From a virus, in the IMG/VR virus record IMGVR_UViG_3300046466_000049, positions 1 to 22,639 of that record: 22,639 bases of DNA; one strand, 5' to 3'. Position 1 is the first letter of the stretch. Each line of letters opens with the position of its first letter. A model generated the notes under the pieces. It saw only the letters and a list, made by a program, of their open reading frames with translations, ran no database searches and was not told the DNA's origin. Shown piece after piece: positions 14,402 through 22,639 of the stretch. The position numbers and the translations under genes are program-made.

Positions 14402-14746
14402 ATGGCTAGAACTTTTGATGGTACTGTTGAGGCTTATGTTGCACCTATTGCTAAGACTGTAAAGGTGCGTAACCACTCTGCTGGAACTGCTTATACAGCT
14501 GAGAATATCACTGAGCTTTATGGTGTAATGTTATCCGCTGCTGAAAAGCATGGTGTAACTGTGAGTGTATTTTGTCCTGATATTGAGAAAAGTCGTAAAG
14601 GTGGCTTTACTGTCGCTGAATTGACTGGCTTGGATATGGATAAATATCAACCGAAATTACTTGGCGGTAGATTCGGTGCTTATGTCGCTGTACTTGCTGA
14701 TGATGATAAGTCTGTACCAACTGGTGCTAAGACAATCGTACTGTAA
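14402..14746 (+). CDS. First protein of the replication operon, unknown function, 114 aa
   Basis: GGAGG (14392-14396) lies 5 nt before the ATG. The product begins MARTFDGTVEAYVAPIAKTV, followed by KVRNHSAGTAYTAENITELY, a helix (GVMLSAAEKHG), a hydrophobic strand (VTVSVFCPDI) and a C-terminal GGRFGAYVAVLADDD. It is small, soluble and mixed alpha/beta, with one Cys. It is the first gene after the putative origin, a place often taken by single-strand binding, initiator or regulatory proteins. I see no OB-fold signature clear enough to claim one. Function unknown. Confidence 0.6.
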   Translation: MARTFDGTVEAYVAPIAKTVKVRNHSAGTAYTAENITELYGVMLSAAEKHGVTVSVFCPDIEKSRKGGFTVAELTGLDMDKYQPKLLGGRFGAYVAVLADDDKSVPTGAKTIVL

Positions 14747-15299: not shown

Positions 15300-15469
15300 A
15301 GCTATTCATGTTACGGCATGAACAAGGTGGATATGCAATACGTGATGAAGGGGGGGATATAGTTCACTTCTCTGACAAAATGATTGCAAAGAAATCTAAG
15401 CAGGGAACTCAAGTAGTTTCCTATGGCATTGACCATCGCAACTATAAACTTAAGAAGGGAGACATATGA
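15281..15469 (+). CDS. Small basic protein, 62 aa
   Basis: The start at 15281 has GGAAGGAG (15266-15273) 7 nt upstream; the longer in-frame start at 15242 is inside the previous gene without such a site. The product begins MAKQNLKLFMLRHEQGGYAI, then RDEGGDIVHFSDKMIAKKSK, and ends with DHRNYKLKKGDI. It is basic, with a likely beta-hairpin and helix. No family is recognised. Its TGA overlaps the ATG of the AAA+ gene, so the two are translationally coupled. A G7 run (15350-15356) encodes Gly-Gly-Asp. Confidence 0.6.
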   Translation: MAKQNLKLFMLRHEQGGYAIRDEGGDIVHFSDKMIAKKSKQGTQVVSYGIDHRNYKLKKGDI

Positions 15470-16464
15470 TGCGAGCTACATTACTACAAGAAACTCTTAA
15501 TGAGTTATTCAAATCTAAAAGACCTGTGTGTATCGAAGGTATGCCAGGGGGCGGTAAAACTACCATCGTACAACAAGTTGCCAACAAACTATCTGTTGGG
15601 TACATCGAGAAGCATACACCTACCATGCTTGTCGAGGACTTTGGTGTACCAGATATGGCAGTTGAAGGTAACTCATTTGGTTACAAATTACCTGACTGGT
15701 ATCCTGCTGAAGGCAGAACAGATGTACCTGATGAGGGTATACTCTGCTTTGATGATCGTAACCAAGCACCTGCTGACATTCAGAAAGTACTAGCGAATGT
15801 ATTGCAGGCTAGGACATTGCATGGTGTACCACTGAAGAAAGGTTGGCACTGCATGTCTACTGGTAACAGACAACAAGACAGAGCAGGTGCTAACAGAATC
15901 TTATCTCACTTACGTAATCGTGAGACTGTCATTGAACTTGAAACACACCTAGATGATTGGACTAGTTGGGCTATTGAACATGAGGTCAAGCCAGAGCTAG
16001 TGTCATTCATTAGGTTCAGACCTAATCTACTACATGACTTTGACCCACAGCGTGACATCAATGCTACACCACGTTCATGGGTTGAGGGTGTATCTGATGT
16101 GATTGGTATTGTACCTGCTGATGCAGAGTACGAGTGCTTCAAGGGTGCAGTTGGTGAAGGTGCTGCGGCAGAGTTCGTTGGCTTTCTTAAGATACATCGT
16201 AAGCTACCTAATCCTGACAGCATACTGATGAATCCTAGCCAAGCTAATGTACCTGATGACCCTGCTACATTGTATGCACTGTGTGGCACTCTCGCTCACA
16301 AGGCTACGCTAGCTAACTTCGATAGGGTTATTACCTACGTTGGTCGTATGCCTAAAGAGTTCTCTGTCCTATGTATTTCGTATGCTACTCGCAAGAATGA
16401 TGAGCTTGCTAGTAGTGGTGCGTTTACTAAGTGGGCAGTTGATAACCAAGATGTTTTATTCTAG
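15466..16464 (+). CDS. MoxR-type AAA+ ATPase, 332 aa
   Basis: Walker A is GMPGGGKT at residues 25-32, the Walker B-like segment is GILCFDDRNQAP at 91-102, and sensor 1 is STGNR at 131-135. A likely arginine-finger region is LSHLRNRETVIEL at about 145-157. This layout matches MoxR/CobS-like AAA+ ATPases found in phages. The Walker B has Asp where the catalytic Glu normally sits (DD for DE). MoxR ATPases work with a von Willebrand A-domain partner, and such a gene lies two places downstream. The role is probably a chaperone or remodelling motor; annotation as cobalt chelatase CobS would be a family-level carry-over. Two adjacent ATGs (15466 and 15469) are both possible starts. Confidence 0.8.
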   Translation: MMRATLLQETLNELFKSKRPVCIEGMPGGGKTTIVQQVANKLSVGYIEKHTPTMLVEDFGVPDMAVEGNSFGYKLPDWYPAEGRTDVPDEGILCFDDRNQAPADIQKVLANVLQARTLHGVPLKKGWHCMSTGNRQQDRAGANRILSHLRNRETVIELETHLDDWTSWAIEHEVKPELVSFIRFRPNLLHDFDPQRDINATPRSWVEGVSDVIGIVPADAEYECFKGAVGEGAAAEFVGFLKIHRKLPNPDSILMNPSQANVPDDPATLYALCGTLAHKATLANFDRVITYVGRMPKEFSVLCISYATRKNDELASSGAFTKWAVDNQDVLF

Positions 16465-16465
16465 T

Positions 16466-16470
16466 GGAGG
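16466..16470 (+). promoter_or_regulatory. Ribosome binding site deciding the start at 16476
   Basis: GGAGG lies 5 nt before the ATG at 16476. An in-frame GTG at 16464 overlaps this site and the stop of the AAA+ gene, so the ATG start is preferred. Confidence 0.65.
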
Positions 16471-16475
16471 TAAAC

Positions 16476-17336
16476 ATGAAACTTACAGACAAAGCATTAC
16501 TCGTTCAGCTTAACGTGTCACAGTGGACGGCACGTAAGTATGACAGAGCAGTAACACAACAAGTTGCTGAACAACACAACACAATCGTTGAGGCAGGTAG
16601 ATACAACAAGTCTTTACTTCCTCTCAATGATTACCTTGGTAACATTCACAAGCTGACTACTACCATACGGACAGAGTACTACAAGAACACTCTGCCTTGG
16701 GGTATCAATGGTACGCAGATGTTACCATCTAAAAACTATCTGTCGTTTATGACAGAGCATCGTGCCAAGAAAGCTAACTGGTTGGCACTAGTTGACCAGT
16801 TCGTTGATGTGTATCCACAGTTGAAACTAGATGCACAAAGGCTACTACCTAACGGACTGTACAAGGAGGAGGACTACCCTACTCTCGATGGTCTACGTGC
16901 TAAGTTTGGTATGGAGATAGTTGTCCTACCAGTACCTGCCGATGACTTCCGAGTACAGATTGCAGATGAAGAACTGTCTGCTATTCAACAAGAAGTTACT
17001 GACAGAGTAACCAACGCATCACAGGAAGCTATGAAGGAAGCATGGCAACGACTGTACGATGTAGTCAAGCATGCTAGTGACAAGCTGAATGACCCTACTG
17101 GTGTATTCCGTGACTCACTGGTTGCAAATATCAATGACATCTGTGGCATATTGCCAAGGCTTAACTTTGCTGATGACCCTAACCTTGAGACCATGCGTCA
17201 ACAGGTTGAGCAATCACTTGCTAACGAGAACCCTGAAGCACTACGTGTAGACTGGGATTTACGTGAGCAGAAAGGCAGACAAGTCAAGGCTATCGCTGAC
17301 AAGATGGCAGTCTTTATGGGAGAGTTGAATGACTGA
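16476..17336 (+). CDS. DUF3150-like protein between AAA+ and vWA genes, 286 aa
   Basis: The product is soluble and mostly helical. It contains the order NKSLLPLNDYLGNIHKL, EYYKNTLPWGINGTQMLP, a helix FMTEHRAKKANWLALVDQFV, EEDYPTLDGLRAKFGMEI, then PVPADDFRVQIADEE, followed by a long helical C-terminal half. 'NTLPW - RLLP/QMLP - DYP - F - P.P...DFRV' is the pattern I know as DUF3150, found in phages next to MoxR ATPases and vWA proteins. No catalytic motif is visible. The gene overlaps the vWA gene by 8 nt, so all three are made together. It may be an adaptor or substrate-binding part of the AAA+/vWA complex (inference). Confidence 0.65.
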   Translation: MKLTDKALLVQLNVSQWTARKYDRAVTQQVAEQHNTIVEAGRYNKSLLPLNDYLGNIHKLTTTIRTEYYKNTLPWGINGTQMLPSKNYLSFMTEHRAKKANWLALVDQFVDVYPQLKLDAQRLLPNGLYKEEDYPTLDGLRAKFGMEIVVLPVPADDFRVQIADEELSAIQQEVTDRVTNASQEAMKEAWQRLYDVVKHASDKLNDPTGVFRDSLVANINDICGILPRLNFADDPNLETMRQQVEQSLANENPEALRVDWDLREQKGRQVKAIADKMAVFMGELND

Positions 17337-18453
17337 TTTACAAACACGCTTGGCTAAAGCCAAGACATCACTAATGCTGGAGTATCCCTTTTGGGGTACT
17401 CTAGTAATGAACATGCCGTTCAAGATTACAGATGCAGTATCTACTGCCGCTACTGATGGCAAGCAAGTTCTATTTAATCCAGAGTTCTGTGACAAACAGA
17501 ATGATGAGGAACTTAAGTTCCTTGTTGCGCATGAGATTGCACACCCAATGTTTGAACACACCACAAGGCGTGGTGAGAGAGACCACTACAAGTGGAATCA
17601 AGCAGGTGACTATGTAATCAATCAAGTACTAACTGATGAAGGTCTAGGCAAGATGCCAGAGGGAGGACTATATGACCCTGACTTATATAATTCTTGTGAT
17701 GGGATTACTGATCGCATCTATAACACATTACCTGACACGCCTGAAGGAGAACAAGGCTATGGAGGAGAGGGTCAGCCGTTTGATTCAGTTACAGATGGAG
17801 GACAGACGCAGGCAGAGATTGCACAACAGCAAGCAGAATGGCGTGTTAAGGTAGCTCAAGCAGTACAGTCTGCTAAGATGATGGGTAAGTTGAGTGCAGG
17901 TGTTGAACGCCTAGTCGGTGAACTACTAACACCCAAGGTATTGTGGGCAGATGTATTACAACGCTTCATCATCAAGGCTAAGACTGATGATAGAACGTTT
18001 GCTAGACCTAACAGACGATTCATTCAGCAGGGTATGTATCTACCTAGTATCACTGGTGAAGTGATGGGTGAGATTGTATGGGCGGTTGACTGCTCTGGTT
18101 CTATTGGACAGAAACAAATAGACCAGTTCGCTACTGAAATCATCAAGGTATGGGAAGACCATAAACCTACCAAGACTCATGTCATCTATTTTGATAGTGA
18201 AGTGAGTCACTATGATTGCTTTGGTCAAGACGATAGACCAGAGATTAAACCACATGGTGGTGGAGGTACTGCCTTCTCACCAGTGTTCAATTACATGCAA
18301 GACAACGACATAGAACCAGTTGCTTGTGTGTTCCTAACTGACCTCTACTGTGATGACTTCGGTACTGAACCTAATTGCCCAGTACTGTGGGTTACTACAG
18401 ATGCAGAGGAAGCACCATTCGGTGAAGTTGTAAAAATGGAAGGAGTAAACTAA
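17329..18453 (+). CDS. vWA metallopeptidase-like protein (DUF2201-type), 374 aa
   Basis: The N-terminal half carries a zinc-protease signature HEIAH at residues 68-72, within FLVAHEIAHPMFEH. The C-terminal half is a von Willebrand A-like domain with a complete metal site: DCSGS at 254-258, Thr314 in GGGGTAF, and Asp338 in FLTDLYCDDF. The linker (about 145-185) is Gly/Gln-rich. This is the two-domain layout of the DUF2201 putative metallopeptidase/VWA-like family (CobT-like in some annotations). It most likely partners the AAA+ ATPase upstream. All visible key residues are intact in both halves. Whether it cleaves proteins is not known. The TAA overlaps the next ATG. Confidence 0.82.
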   Translation: MTDLQTRLAKAKTSLMLEYPFWGTLVMNMPFKITDAVSTAATDGKQVLFNPEFCDKQNDEELKFLVAHEIAHPMFEHTTRRGERDHYKWNQAGDYVINQVLTDEGLGKMPEGGLYDPDLYNSCDGITDRIYNTLPDTPEGEQGYGGEGQPFDSVTDGGQTQAEIAQQQAEWRVKVAQAVQSAKMMGKLSAGVERLVGELLTPKVLWADVLQRFIIKAKTDDRTFARPNRRFIQQGMYLPSITGEVMGEIVWAVDCSGSIGQKQIDQFATEIIKVWEDHKPTKTHVIYFDSEVSHYDCFGQDDRPEIKPHGGGGTAFSPVFNYMQDNDIEPVACVFLTDLYCDDFGTEPNCPVLWVTTDAEEAPFGEVVKMEGVN

Positions 18454-19136
18454 TGGCAACAGTTAGATTTAGTGACTCACTCAAGGGTGAGATACGGAAC
18501 AAAGCTAAGGCTATGTTTCAAGACAAGATAAAGCAGGCACAGGATAACGTGCCTGCTCATTGGGCAGACAAGGTGTATGAATGTCTGTTTCCTGCTGATG
18601 TACGTAATGCTATGGCGTCATTACCAGACTACGTATTGCGTAAACAAGAAGTACTTGAGGTTACTGGTTGGGCTAATGCACCAGAGGATGTATGGCAGAG
18701 TGGTGATTACAAGCACAATACATGGAGACTAGATGGTGGTGGTATTAAGTTATCGTTCAGTAAGCCTATGCCCTGGGTTGCTAATTTTGAGAATGCGCCT
18801 AATGGATTTAAGTCATCATACAGCAGTGGTAAGTTTGACTATGAAGACTCACGTTGGGACTGGTTGAAACCAGAGTTCAAAGAATACAATCGCAAAGTCT
18901 TTGAAGCTACTGATAAACAGGAAAAGTTTCTGTCATCTGTCAACACGTTGATGGAAACATACACCACACTTGCACCTGCTCTCAAAGCATGGCGACCACT
19001 GTGGGATTTACTACCAGAAGAAGCCAAGGACAGACACAAGACTGTCAAAGAACGTAAGGTAGTCAAGGCAGAGGAGCTAGACCTTGACCTTAATGCAATG
19101 ACTAGTGCCGTGGCACTAAGTAAAATAACTAAATAA
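18453..19136 (+). CDS. Possible Nmad5-like (nucleotide modification-associated) protein, 227 aa
   Basis: AAGGAG lies upstream of the ATG at 18453, which shares a base with the vWA stop. The product starts MATVRFSDSLKGEIRNKAKA, with a helical MFQDKIKQAQDNVPAHWADK and VYECLFPADVRNAMASLPDY, then a beta region around GGGIKLSFSKPMPWV, and a C-terminal helix ending LAPALKAWRPLWDLLPEEAK. The order 'helix - LYECLFP..VR.A...LP - beta - L..aWP.lwdLLPE' recalls the Nmad5 family, linked by context to phage DNA modification. I hold the family name at moderate to low confidence. No transferase or nuclease motif can be seen. Confidence 0.5.
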   Translation: MATVRFSDSLKGEIRNKAKAMFQDKIKQAQDNVPAHWADKVYECLFPADVRNAMASLPDYVLRKQEVLEVTGWANAPEDVWQSGDYKHNTWRLDGGGIKLSFSKPMPWVANFENAPNGFKSSYSSGKFDYEDSRWDWLKPEFKEYNRKVFEATDKQEKFLSSVNTLMETYTTLAPALKAWRPLWDLLPEEAKDRHKTVKERKVVKAEELDLDLNAMTSAVALSKITK

Positions 19137-19146
19137 GGAGGTATAT

Positions 19147-20073
19147 ATGACAAGAAGTTATTTTGGTGAACCATTGATAAAAGACTACGCTGATTGTGAG
19201 CGTAGGTTTTCTACTGCAAGACACCCAGAAAAGGGTAAGCCTATACGTACATGGTGTAGGCTATACAAGAACCAAGATGTGTACGAGTTGAGGTACGTAA
19301 CTTGGAATGGTAAAGACGTTGATGTGATAGCTGAGTTTCATCCAGATGGTAGGATTGTACTGCCATCTGATAGCATTACATGGCAAGCTATGCATTCATC
19401 TTTATCAATGGCATTACATGGGGCAATACCTATAGTTACCCAACGGATTGGTAGAGCTAGGTATCGTATTGGTCATACTATATTCTTGGATAACAACGTG
19501 GAATACCAAGAACAAGACCCACTAGCAGGTGGTACTCATTACTACAATGACTGGTGGAAATCATTCAAGAAGAATGGAACAGAGTACTTTGCAGGTATTA
19601 CGTTCAATCACGAAGGTCTATGCACCAACCCACAGTACGCTGTGAGTGGTGAGATTGACGCAGAGAAACGTAAGACATGGCTACGTATACTTAGACGATT
19701 CAAGCGTGGGTTAAAAGCAAGAGCCAAGGTAGGTGCATTGCAACAACATGCCAAGCGTATCTATGACAAGCATGTTGATATGGAACGTAAAGGTGAACAT
19801 CGTTGGCAATGGCAGATGCCTAACTGGCACTCAAAGAAGTATTACGATATGCTCAAGGAAGCTATGCAGACTAATGAATACACACCAGAGTTCCTTGAAG
19901 CCTTTGTCGAATCAGCTACGCCTAATACCTATGGCAATTCTATAGCTACAGATTCACACATCTTACGATACGTTGACACGTTGATGAATGATTTGTCGTA
20001 TCAGCTACGTAAAGATTTCGGTGTCTTTATTACCGAGCCTAAAAACGCTGATGGAAAGGTAATACAACGATGA
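19147..20073 (+). CDS. Phage protein of unknown function, 308 aa
   Basis: AAGGAGG lies 5 nt before the ATG. The N-terminal half is beta-rich and aromatic (TWCRLYKNQDVYELRYVTWN, DVDVIAEFHPDGRIVLPSD). Residues 170-260 are strongly basic and helical (KTWLRILRRFKRGLKARAKV, then KRIYDKHVDMERKGEHRWQW), which suggests nucleic-acid contact. The last part is helical, with DTLMNDLSYQLRKDFGVFI. The last TGA overlaps the next ATG. It is encoded inside the AAA+/vWA/Ntn operon, with no family I recognise. No helicase, nuclease or polymerase motif is apparent. Confidence 0.65.
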   Translation: MTRSYFGEPLIKDYADCERRFSTARHPEKGKPIRTWCRLYKNQDVYELRYVTWNGKDVDVIAEFHPDGRIVLPSDSITWQAMHSSLSMALHGAIPIVTQRIGRARYRIGHTIFLDNNVEYQEQDPLAGGTHYYNDWWKSFKKNGTEYFAGITFNHEGLCTNPQYAVSGEIDAEKRKTWLRILRRFKRGLKARAKVGALQQHAKRIYDKHVDMERKGEHRWQWQMPNWHSKKYYDMLKEAMQTNEYTPEFLEAFVESATPNTYGNSIATDSHILRYVDTLMNDLSYQLRKDFGVFITEPKNADGKVIQR

Positions 20074-20537
20074 CAGTTATTGCATGGGATGGCGAGGTAC
20101 TAGCTACCGATACCCAATGTACGTTGGGTAATGCCAAGTATCAATCACCTAAAGCATGGTACGAGTCTGTGGGGGGGCAGGCTTGTATCATCAGTGGTGT
20201 AGGTACACTAAAAAATATACACCGACATAAGGAATGGTTGGTGAGAGATGATAAGTCTGACTTTCCTTATGGCGCATTAGAAAACCACTACTACCAATTC
20301 ATTCTTGTAACTAAAGAAGGACTACTACGTTACGAGGGTACACCTTATCCCATAGTACATGGGGTAAATGCTTGTGCATTCGGTGAAGCATCTGACTTTG
20401 CCTATGGTGCATTAGCTATGGGGGCTACGGCTATTGAAGCAGTCAAGGTAGCTATTCAATACTCTCACCAGTGTGGGGGTAATGTTGAATCATATTCGTT
20501 ATTGAAAGGAGACGGACATGAGAAGAAAGAAAACTAA
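20070..20537 (+). CDS. Proteasome-like Ntn-hydrolase fold protein, 155 aa
   Basis: The sequence opens MTVIAWDGEVLATDTQCTLG, with Thr at position 2, exactly where removal of Met would expose the nucleophile of proteasome beta-like and HslV-like enzymes. Family-like positions follow: an Asp in the 'aTDtq' segment, IISGVGTLKNI (the usual 'i.G.G' turn), and ACAFGEASDFAYGALAMGAT, matching 'a.GsG.d.A.gAm..Ga'. AIEAVKVAIQYSHQCGG completes the helical layer. Related proteasome-like proteins occur in many phages. It is compact, without the long inserts of HslV. Assembly, substrate and activity are unknown. It overlaps the next gene by 20 nt. Confidence 0.72.
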   Translation: MTVIAWDGEVLATDTQCTLGNAKYQSPKAWYESVGGQACIISGVGTLKNIHRHKEWLVRDDKSDFPYGALENHYYQFILVTKEGLLRYEGTPYPIVHGVNACAFGEASDFAYGALAMGATAIEAVKVAIQYSHQCGGNVESYSLLKGDGHEKKEN

Positions 20538-20961
20538 ATCTGAAAAGGTGTGGGCATACCTTATCAAACATCCAGATGCCAAGACTAAAGATGTAGCCAA
20601 GGCGTGTGATTGTACAATTAAGTATGTCTACAACTTACGCAGCCAAGTGGGTACACCGAAAGAGGTACTCGTTAAGCCTAAGGTGCGCATGCGTACAGAG
20701 ATACTGACATCTGCCAACGAGTTGGTGAGTGATAAACGTGAGCATGAACACGGCGACTTTGCAAGTAACGCTTTTATGATTGCTAATTACTGGAACACTC
20801 ACTTGGGTTTGATTGATTTCATCAAGCCTACTGATGTACCTACCATGTTGGCACTGATGAAGATAGCAAGGTCACACCAGAAACCACAGAAGGCAGACAA
20901 CTATCGTGATGCTTGTGGTTACTTGGCGTTAGCTAGTGAAATAGCGAGTGCATCTGAATGA
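20518..20961 (+). CDS. HTH plus DUF6378-like protein, 147 aa
   Basis: AAAGGAG lies upstream of the ATG at 20518. Residues 8-45 form a probable winged/helix-turn-helix (VWAYLIKHPDAKTKDVAKAC, then TIKYVYNLRSQVG). The rest matches the order I know for DUF6378: ILTSANELVSDKREHEHGDF, IANYWNTHLG, FIKPTDVPTMLALMKIAR, DNYRDACGYLALASEIA. DUF6378 alone is common in phages; here it is fused to a DNA-binding-type N-terminus. It sits directly before the DNA polymerase with a TGA/ATG overlap, so a regulatory or replication-linked role is likely by position. Function is not known. Confidence 0.68.
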   Translation: MRRKKTKSEKVWAYLIKHPDAKTKDVAKACDCTIKYVYNLRSQVGTPKEVLVKPKVRMRTEILTSANELVSDKREHEHGDFASNAFMIANYWNTHLGLIDFIKPTDVPTMLALMKIARSHQKPQKADNYRDACGYLALASEIASASE

Positions 20962-22639
20962 GTATTATAACTATAGACTTTGAAACCTACTACAGTAGGG
21001 AGTTCTCGTTGTCGAAGATGACAACAGAAGCCTATGTACGTGACGATAGGTTTGAGGTCATTGGGGTTGCTGTCAAGGTAGATGGCAACCCTACCACATG
21101 GTATGCAGGTAGTGATGTGGGGGGTTTCCTAAACGACATCGACTACACTGACCATACTATATTATGTCACAACACTGCGTTCGATGGTGCGATACTGTCA
21201 TGGCTATATAATATAAAGCCAAAGTTTTGGTTCGATACTATGCTGATGACTAGACCACTGGTCGGGCAGACCATCGGTGGCTCGCTCAAAAATCTCGCTA
21301 TACATTATAATATAGGGGCGAAGGGCGATGAAGTTTTTCACACGCTCGGCAAACGCAAGTCGGACTTCACACCACAAGAGCTTGACCGATTCGGCGATTA
21401 TGCAATCAATGACGTTGACCTTACATACAAGCTATTCAAGAAAGTATCTAAAGGTTTTCCTGTGCAAGAGTTAATGGTGATTGATCAGACCATTCGTATG
21501 TACACAGAACCTACGATTGAATTGGATAGGAGTACTCTTGCGTCTCACCTGGCAACAGTGCAGACAAACAAAGCACAACTTCTTGACACAATAAATACAG
21601 CAGGTGTAGATCCAGACAAGCTGAAGAAACTACTGATGAGTAACGAAAGGTTTGCCAAGTTACTCAAAGCTATGGGTGTCGAACCACCTACCAAGATAAG
21701 TCCTACCACTGGTAATAAGACATGGGCATTTGCCAAGACAGATGCAGGGTTCATTGAGTTATGTGAAAGTGGTTCACCTAAAGTACAAGCCTTATGTCAA
21801 GCAAGGTTGGGTATCAAGTCTACCATTGAGGAGACTAGAACAGAGAACCTAATCAAGGTTGCTGACAGAGGTAAGCTACCTATCATGCTTAACTATTATG
21901 GCGCACACACTGGTAGGTTTAGTGGTGGTGACAAGCTGAACCTACAGAACCTACCAAGGAATGGTGCTATACGCTCTGCCCTGACTGCCCCTGAAGGGCA
22001 TAAGCTAATTGCTTGTGACTCATCACAGATAGAGGCAAGAGTACTAGCACACCTAGCAGGGCAAGATGATTTGGTTGAAGCCTTTAGGCAAGGGCGTGAT
22101 GTGTACAGCGAGTTTGCATCCACTGTATATGGCAGGGTTATAACCAAAGATGACAAGCTAGAAAGGTTTGTCGGTAAGACTTGTATACTAGGCTTAGGTT
22201 ATGGCATGGGTGCAGAGAAGTTTCGTAACACTCTAGCCCTAGGCATGGGAGGACTCAAGGTAGACATACCAGAGGAAGAAGCTAGACGTATTGTATATCT
22301 ATATAGAGATAAGAACCATCGTATCACTGCACTATGGCAACGATGTCAATCGGCATTGTCTGACATGATAGCAAGTCGAGGTGGTGTAATCTCTGACTAC
22401 GTGTCTTATGATAAGCAAGGCATACTGTTACCAAGTAAGTTACGCATACAGTATCCTGCACTAAATCATACTGACAATAACTTTAGATATATATCTGACT
22501 CACGGACATACCGAAAGATTATGTCTGCTAGAGTCCAAGGGGAAGATGTTCCCCACAACAACTGGACTTACATCTATGGCGGCAAAGTCGTAGAGAACAT
22601 AGTCCAAGCACTGGCACGAATAGTAGTGGCAGAGCAAAT
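20958..22639 (+). CDS. Family A DNA polymerase with 3'-5' exonuclease, N-terminal 560 aa (cut at right edge)
   Basis: The ATG at 20958 overlaps the upstream stop. The frame is open to the window edge. The exonuclease domain (about 1-165) keeps Exo I DFE (Asp7, Glu9), Exo II HNTAFD (Asp76) and Exo III YAINDVD (Tyr148, Asp152), so proofreading should be active. The polymerase domain shows motif A CDSSQIEARVLAHLAGQ (Asp354) and the O-helix R403-x3-K407-x3-L411-x3-Y415. The residue aligned with E. coli Phe762 is Leu411. Motif C (HDE) lies beyond the window. There is no 5'-nuclease domain and no inserted DnaJ-like domain in the visible part. It should be the replicative polymerase. Confidence 0.92.
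   Translation, partial: MSIITIDFETYYSREFSLSKMTTEAYVRDDRFEVIGVAVKVDGNPTTWYAGSDVGGFLNDIDYTDHTILCHNTAFDGAILSWLYNIKPKFWFDTMLMTRPLVGQTIGGSLKNLAIHYNIGAKGDEVFHTLGKRKSDFTPQELDRFGDYAINDVDLTYKLFKKVSKGFPVQELMVIDQTIRMYTEPTIELDRSTLASHLATVQTNKAQLLDTINTAGVDPDKLKKLLMSNERFAKLLKAMGVEPPTKISPTTGNKTWAFAKTDAGFIELCESGSPKVQALCQARLGIKSTIEETRTENLIKVADRGKLPIMLNYYGAHTGRFSGGDKLNLQNLPRNGAIRSALTAPEGHKLIACDSSQIEARVLAHLAGQDDLVEAFRQGRDVYSEFASTVYGRVITKDDKLERFVGKTCILGLGYGMGAEKFRNTLALGMGGLKVDIPEEEARRIVYLYRDKNHRITALWQRCQSALSDMIASRGGVISDYVSYDKQGILLPSKLRIQYPALNHTDNNFRYISDSRTYRKIMSARVQGEDVPHNNWTYIYGGKVVENIVQALARIVVAEQ

Follow-up and report, generated by a model that had tools for sequence, protein, structure and literature searches.

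What a run of mostly overlapping phage genes encodes, one protein machine or several separate products, is the question raised by the viral record IMGVR_UViG_3300046466_000049, whose 22,639 bases were analyzed over their full length (hereafter the window). On the plus strand, a cassette of seven genes (15466-20961) encodes an AAA+ ATPase, a DUF3150-related protein, a vWA protein with a metallopeptidase domain, the proteins p4 and p5, an N-terminal nucleophile (Ntn) hydrolase and a DUF6378-domain protein, and reaches the gene of a family A DNA polymerase (PolA) at 20958. A preliminary description had placed six or seven genes upstream of the polymerase, at coordinates that match ours for all seven open reading frames (ORFs), and had proposed a protein-remodelling or degradation machine. 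The ATPase/vWA pair in that proposal stood, but a single machine made of all the parts was not supported, as only the AAA+/DUF3150/vWA trio travels together outside this lineage, the Ntn gene can be lost and p4-like genes occur elsewhere. Found in uncultured aquatic phages, the locus is most readily understood as a core trio that travels as a unit, plus neighbours; the trio probably acts as an ATP-driven protein-remodelling machine for replication or establishment.

Conservation of the cassette in related phages

Related loci were gathered with the vWA, DUF3150, p4, and Ntn proteins as queries, and presence was counted in the set of 80 contigs with DUF3150, considering only those with enough flanking sequence. 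The AAA+ and vWA genes were each present in 65 of 65 such contigs, p4 in 57/57, p5 in 51/51, and the Ntn gene in 42/46. The order AAA+, DUF3150, vWA-metallopeptidase, p4, p5, Ntn, DUF6378, polymerase was constant across the 80 relatives and identical in all 47 contigs showing both the AAA+ and polymerase genes; where 0.3-1 kb of inserted DNA separates DUF3150 from vWA, or vWA from p4, it is still intact. Starting from the Ntn gene, vWA, p4, and p5 were found in each of the 30 loci with upstream room. Ratios of dN/dS were 0.13, 0.105, and 0.16 for the AAA+, DUF3150, and vWA genes, 0.12 for the polymerase and 0.20-0.26 for the others; purifying selection acts on all the cassette genes and, for the first three, is about as strong as on the polymerase gene.

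The preliminary description had suggested profile searches and a count of co-occurrence as checks, and had named chance-level co-occurrence, or homologues lacking the HExxH, MIDAS and Thr2 residues, as grounds for abandoning it. Families were assigned and the counts were near-complete. HExxH was kept in 87 and all five MIDAS residues in 88 of 88 distinct aligned vWA sequences, and the Thr/Ser position of the Ntn protein in 80 of 80. This confirmed the cassette as real and strongly conserved, beyond chance.

The core trio in plasmids, bacteria and other phages

The AAA+/DUF3150/vWA trio was found on 10 plasmids of Burkholderiales and Rhodovastum out of the 11 examined, in the freshwater cyanophage MinM2 with small genes in between, in the Desulfobacterota genome L263, and in contigs assigned to Desulfobacterales (L240) and Tannerella (L239), the last with a different gene order. 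On the eleventh plasmid (Manganitrophus), DUF3150 has another kind of AAA+ gene as its neighbour, together with DUF1257, and vWA is missing. In a comparison of 11 diverse elements, the pairwise distances of the trio proteins were correlated (r 0.75-0.90, p <= 0.0005). Profiles of the Ntn protein, p4, and p5 found nothing at the subset of plasmid and bacterial trio loci searched with them. With 297 genomes sampled in each phylum, DUF3150 relatives turned up in eight of Desulfobacterota and one of Bacteroidota; the distribution is patchy and mobile. Cyanophage records H61-H63, which also carry DUF3150, are each 65,014 bases long and are probably one phage. On the Robbsia plasmid (L279:1-981), the trio is preceded by PRTRC system genes and followed by type IV secretion genes. 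A ParB-type gene near plasmid trios was considered and set aside: its GERR motif was seen only in L240 and L242, and was not there upstream in L241, L244, and L247.

These distributions bear on two other explanations. Gene order in replication regions can persist by descent, and p4, p5, the Ntn gene, and DUF6378 diverge faster and are in part separable, so that the cassette might hold unrelated middle genes kept together by lineage, with no shared machine. This is improbable for the trio, which turns up again in elements unrelated to one another, shows correlated distances and keeps its order despite the insertions between its genes. The other explanation is virion assembly or processing, in which an AAA+/vWA-metallopeptidase chaperone would fold or clip structural proteins; it has been proposed for Acidianus two-tailed virus and, with the same domain pair, for jumbo phages (PMC7824862), and 573 records of isolate phages contain the vWA-metallopeptidase. 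Yet the trio sits on plasmids that make no virion, and in the window it lies with replication genes on the plus strand, where small genes lead into the cassette and then the polymerase, opposite to the structural and packaging genes that fill the left part on the minus strand; the homologues in phage N4, moreover, are middle genes (PMC4193335). Because the trio is found on plasmids and beside replication genes, virion assembly is rather unlikely as its general role.

Proteins of the core trio

The ATPase matched AAA_5 (PF07728; 27.6 bits vs. a cut-off of 22), whereas the MoxR-proper model PF07726 stayed below its cut-off (14.6 vs. 27). Its Walker A motif is GMPGGGKT and its Walker B motif LCFDDRNQA, with Asp at the usual position of the catalytic Glu. 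This Asp-Asp, in place of Asp-Glu, is shared by the lineage of the window and nine of the 10 plasmid trios, and Asp-Asp followed by the QA motif occurs in almost all DUF3150-associated ATPases, MinM2 and Rhodovastum being the exceptions. Residues K31, D96, N134, R152, and R203 were invariant among the aligned sequences; by position, N134, R152, and R203 would be sensor 1, the arginine finger and sensor 2, respectively. The C-terminal tail HQD[VI]LF is near-invariant in the phage ATPases (NQDVLF in the window protein). A PADLOC defence search matched the ATPase at the level of the P-loop only. In L006/L043 the ATPase has a C-terminus unlike that of any relative, which suggests that the gene is frameshifted there. 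MoxR-type AAA+ proteins form hexameric rings.

The vWA protein of the window matched DUF2201_N (6.5e-43) and the vWA-like DUF2201 (7.6e-24) in Pfam. Its zinc site comprises HEIAH at residues 68-72, H77, N90-x-A-x-D94, and N98, and its MIDAS (DCSGS...T...D) is intact at D254/S256/S258, T314, and D338. There is good support for assigning the ATPase to the MoxR type, with an adjoining vWA partner that bears a zinc-peptidase domain, and the earlier claim of such a pair with an intact HEIAH holds. HExxH is also present in the vWA protein of MinM2. In three plasmid or bacterial elements, from P. dioscoreae, Variovorax and Desulfobacterales, the whole zinc motif has decayed while the MIDAS and the trio are kept; the MIDAS was retained in every element checked. 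In the best model the peptidase domain is usual but dispensable, and its loss beside a persisting MIDAS and trio suggests that the core function lies in remodelling, with cleavage as an accessory. Virus AAA+/vWA pairs have also been interpreted, in haloarchaeal tailed viruses and cyanophages, as CobST-like cobaltochelatase helpers that boost host B12 synthesis for viral replication (PMC8651126). Such a role is most improbable for a protein that matches DUF2201_N and DUF2201 with its zinc-peptidase motif intact and that gave no CobT match in Pfam at E <= 1 and no CobS or CobT match in NCBIfam at E <= 0.01.

The DUF3150 label was partly sustained. PF11348 did not match the window protein at E <= 1, and matched three of 11 of its relatives, at best with 0.054; the label is right only through homology to bona fide members, since profile A7 found L264, L266, and L246 at 2e-23 to 2e-33, and these pass the PF11348 cut-off (24.9) at 35-48 bits. 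The protein is predicted to be mainly helical, with long helices. In a second setting (L264-L268 and L246), which several Desulfobacterota genomes show, DUF3150 lies near an AAA ATPase of about 475 amino acids, with DUF1257 where tested and without vWA; the DUF3150 proteins of this setting are more distant ones, and the three of them tested were all above the Pfam cut-off. As these distant members lie near a different ATPase, DUF3150 pairs with AAA+ ATPases in two settings. A hidden DUF3150 protein in phage G (gp569), suggested by a weak hidden Markov model match, was ruled out by hhalign.

The Ntn hydrolase

The Ntn protein of the window has 155 amino acids with M1-T2, D14, and K28 in place and G43/G45 conserved, in agreement with the preliminary description of a proteasome-like protein with Thr2. 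In the alignment, position 2 was Thr in 71 and Ser in nine of 80 distinct sequences, and the Asp (80/80), Lys (81/81) and Gly (81/81) were constant. The protein matched phrog_1040 ("peptidase HslV family"), and its profile aligned with a Jerseyvirus protein of the "HslV family" (hhalign 3e-13). By these features it appears to fit the phage proteasome homologue (PPH) published in 2021, with which it shares a length of about 140-155 residues, Thr/Ser after Met1, Asp, Lys, and Gly motifs equivalent to Asp17, Lys33, and Gly47, and a phage distribution (PMC8665760). That study found no co-occurring AAA+ interactor, whereas here PPH stands in a conserved operon with an AAA+ gene, although the case for a physical link is weak. 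In two contigs PPH seemed to contain a TGA; this was read as a match overrunning the stop codon, on the coordinates of just one of the two.

The position of PPH within the overlapping run, its conserved catalytic triad and the near-invariant tail of the ATPase, which could dock on a partner, would agree with an ATP-dependent protease in which a MoxR/vWA-type unfoldase with a DUF3150 adaptor feeds the PPH chamber. If true, this would supply the missing AAA+ partner of PPH. Nevertheless, PPH was absent from four DUF3150 contigs with room for it (L090, L099, L100, and the 54.7-kb contig of L110, searched whole), and the tail of the ATPase was unchanged there, so that the tail was rejected as a docking signal for PPH. 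The PPH-type genes of Salmonella, Escherichia, and Klebsiella phages lie among lysis or packaging genes, and none of the annotated genes beside them encodes an AAA+ protein; PPH was missing beside the plasmid and bacterial trios searched. Thus, a protease of this composition is quite improbable.

p4, p5 and DUF6378

The preliminary description had called p4 Nmad5-like, which survives as a remote match below the Pfam cut-off. Nmad5 (PF18757) did not match p4 of the window, and its best score among p4 relatives was 19.1 bits in G010 against a cut-off of 27. Phrog_1965 matched p4 of G010 at 1.6e-6, and its profile also finds the Nmad5 gene C130_2; against BFVD structures labelled as nucleotide modification associated domains, p4 gave values of 0.011 to 0.1. 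A comparison of the p4 profile with one Nmad5 protein by hhalign, a fold search of the Protein Data Bank (PDB) and tblastn in isolate phages gave no match, nothing significant and no hits, respectively. As judged from these profiles, p4 is a remote relative of the Nmad5/phrog_1965 family and a neighbour outside the travelling core. Two Pseudomonas phages, Rollin and (as a weak match) KPP25, also have a phrog_1965 protein, but neither gave a match to the vWA or DUF3150 profile. Counterparts of p4 and p5 in MinM2 and the Rhizobium phage gave no profile match, and p5, the most divergent cassette protein (about 30% identical to its counterparts in the more distant half of the lineage), was not found by tblastn in isolate phages. 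Matches to phrog_1297 and phrog_1314 were also obtained among the cassette genes.

Locus layout

As read from ORF coordinates, one nucleotide (nt) is shared at the AAA+/DUF3150 and vWA/p4 junctions, and overlaps of 8, 4, 20, and 4 nt occur at DUF3150/vWA, p5/Ntn, Ntn/DUF6378, and DUF6378/PolA, respectively, p4 and p5 being separated by a 10-nt gap (Table 1). True starts may lie slightly downstream, as homologues begin at the MKL at 16476 or, for the AAA+ gene, at its second ATG. Upstream of the cassette, 14402-14746 encodes a conserved protein of 114 amino acids with 26-98% identity in relatives. No Rfam family was found in the window, and of the promoter and terminator scans run, that for promoters did no better than in shuffled sequence.

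Table 1. Genes of the cassette and the adjoining polymerase in the window, and vWA genes of other elements with decayed HExxH
Feature	Location	Strand	Basis or remark
AAA+ ATPase, AAA_5/MoxR-type	15466..16464	+	Pfam, PHROG, motif alignment
DUF3150-related protein	16464..17336 (start perhaps 16476)	+	profiles of relatives; predicted helical
vWA protein with N-terminal metallopeptidase domain	17329..18453	+	DUF2201_N and DUF2201 vWA
p4, remote Nmad5/phrog_1965 family relative	18453..19136	+	below Pfam cut-off
p5, conserved protein	19147..20073	+	most divergent of the cassette
Ntn-hydrolase, PPH/HslV-like type	20070..20537	+	Thr2, D14, K28, G43/G45 conserved
DUF6378-domain protein	20518..20961	+	DUF6378 4.8e-23; weak N-terminal HTH match
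Family A replicative DNA polymerase, 3'-5' exonuclease domain	20958..22639, cut by contig end	+	gene-order anchor
HExxH-decayed vWA gene, P. dioscoreae	L281:6917-8194
HExxH-decayed vWA gene, Variovorax	L245:5950-7236
HExxH-decayed vWA gene, Desulfobacterales	L240:6994-8499

Proposed role of the trio

The remodelling machine that we favour would be expressed with the replication genes. The AAA+ ring would engage its substrates by way of the vWA protein and its MIDAS. DUF3150, to which an adaptor role is assigned because it is predicted to be mostly helical and lies beside AAA+ genes in two settings, may link substrate or vWA protein to the ring. The vWA protein would act as a co-chaperone whose metallopeptidase probably cleaves a released segment of the substrate in most elements, this cleavage not being required for the core activity. 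The machine would dismantle or activate a protein complex on which an incoming element depends for its replication or establishment and which phages and plasmids have in common, while p4, p5, PPH, and DUF6378 would be co-transcribed neighbours with related timing and separable function. The gene content and its order, the conserved motifs, co-inheritance and purifying selection are what the data show; complex formation, ATP-driven remodelling, the adaptor role, co-transcription and the target are what we infer. A target in replication or establishment is favoured because plasmids carry the trio without making virions and because the AAA+/vWA pair precedes the polymerase gene not only in this lineage but also in one Rhizobium phage and one phage of the Schitoviridae; that the target is a complex needed for these processes is the weakest step and stays tentative, even doubtful.

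Several observations weigh against this proposal. The trio lies directly upstream of type IV secretion genes in five Burkholderiales plasmids, with which a role in the assembly of secretion or tail complexes would also fit. Phages with the AAA+/vWA pair and without DUF3150 exist, so the third subunit is not universal. The structural model of DUF3150 is of moderate quality (pLDDT 76, pTM 0.50) and a PDB fold search with it gave no significant match. Finally, Asp in place of Glu in the Walker B motif of most trio ATPases could make hydrolysis slow or regulated.

Relation to known systems and significance

The claim that no phage system with these parts had been described appears right for the combination with DUF3150, but not for the AAA+/vWA pair, N4 gp24/gp25 and PPH, which were already published. 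DUF3150 was not mentioned in the open-access literature searched, and on this ground the three-part module appears undescribed there. A MoxR AAA+/metallopeptidase-vWA pair has been described in jumbo (group 2.2) phages (PMC7824862); there too the AAA+ protein is encoded with a vWA protein bearing an N-terminal metallopeptidase domain, whereas here DUF3150 is a third core protein encoded between the two, the lineage has contigs of about 50-55 kb and the setting is one of replication genes, and of plasmids too. N4 gp24 and gp25 (the latter vWFA) are core genes of N4-like phages and middle genes in N4 (PMC4193335). Schitoviridae phages have AAA+ and vWA-metallopeptidase homologues near the DNA polymerase, but a profile search of SBP1, the member of this family tested, gave no DUF3150, and the Walker B motif there is DE, not DD. 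VMAP and other MoxR-vWA ternary systems (PMC7159879) resemble the trio in having a MoxR ATPase, a vWA protein and a third subunit, with fixed order and congruent trees; they differ in that the third subunit here is DUF3150 rather than VMAP/iSTAND, no variable effector domains were seen and the distribution is that of mobile elements.

MoxR/metallopeptidase-vWA pairs are common in phages, and the role published for them as a proposal is virion assembly. The occurrence of the same ATPase and vWA protein on plasmids, with a conserved third subunit, points instead to replication, establishment or counter-defence, and allows the role to be tested without any phage. For DUF3150, the partnership with AAA+ proteins in two ATPase settings provides a first functional context, and the orphan protease PPH is now placed in a conserved operon.

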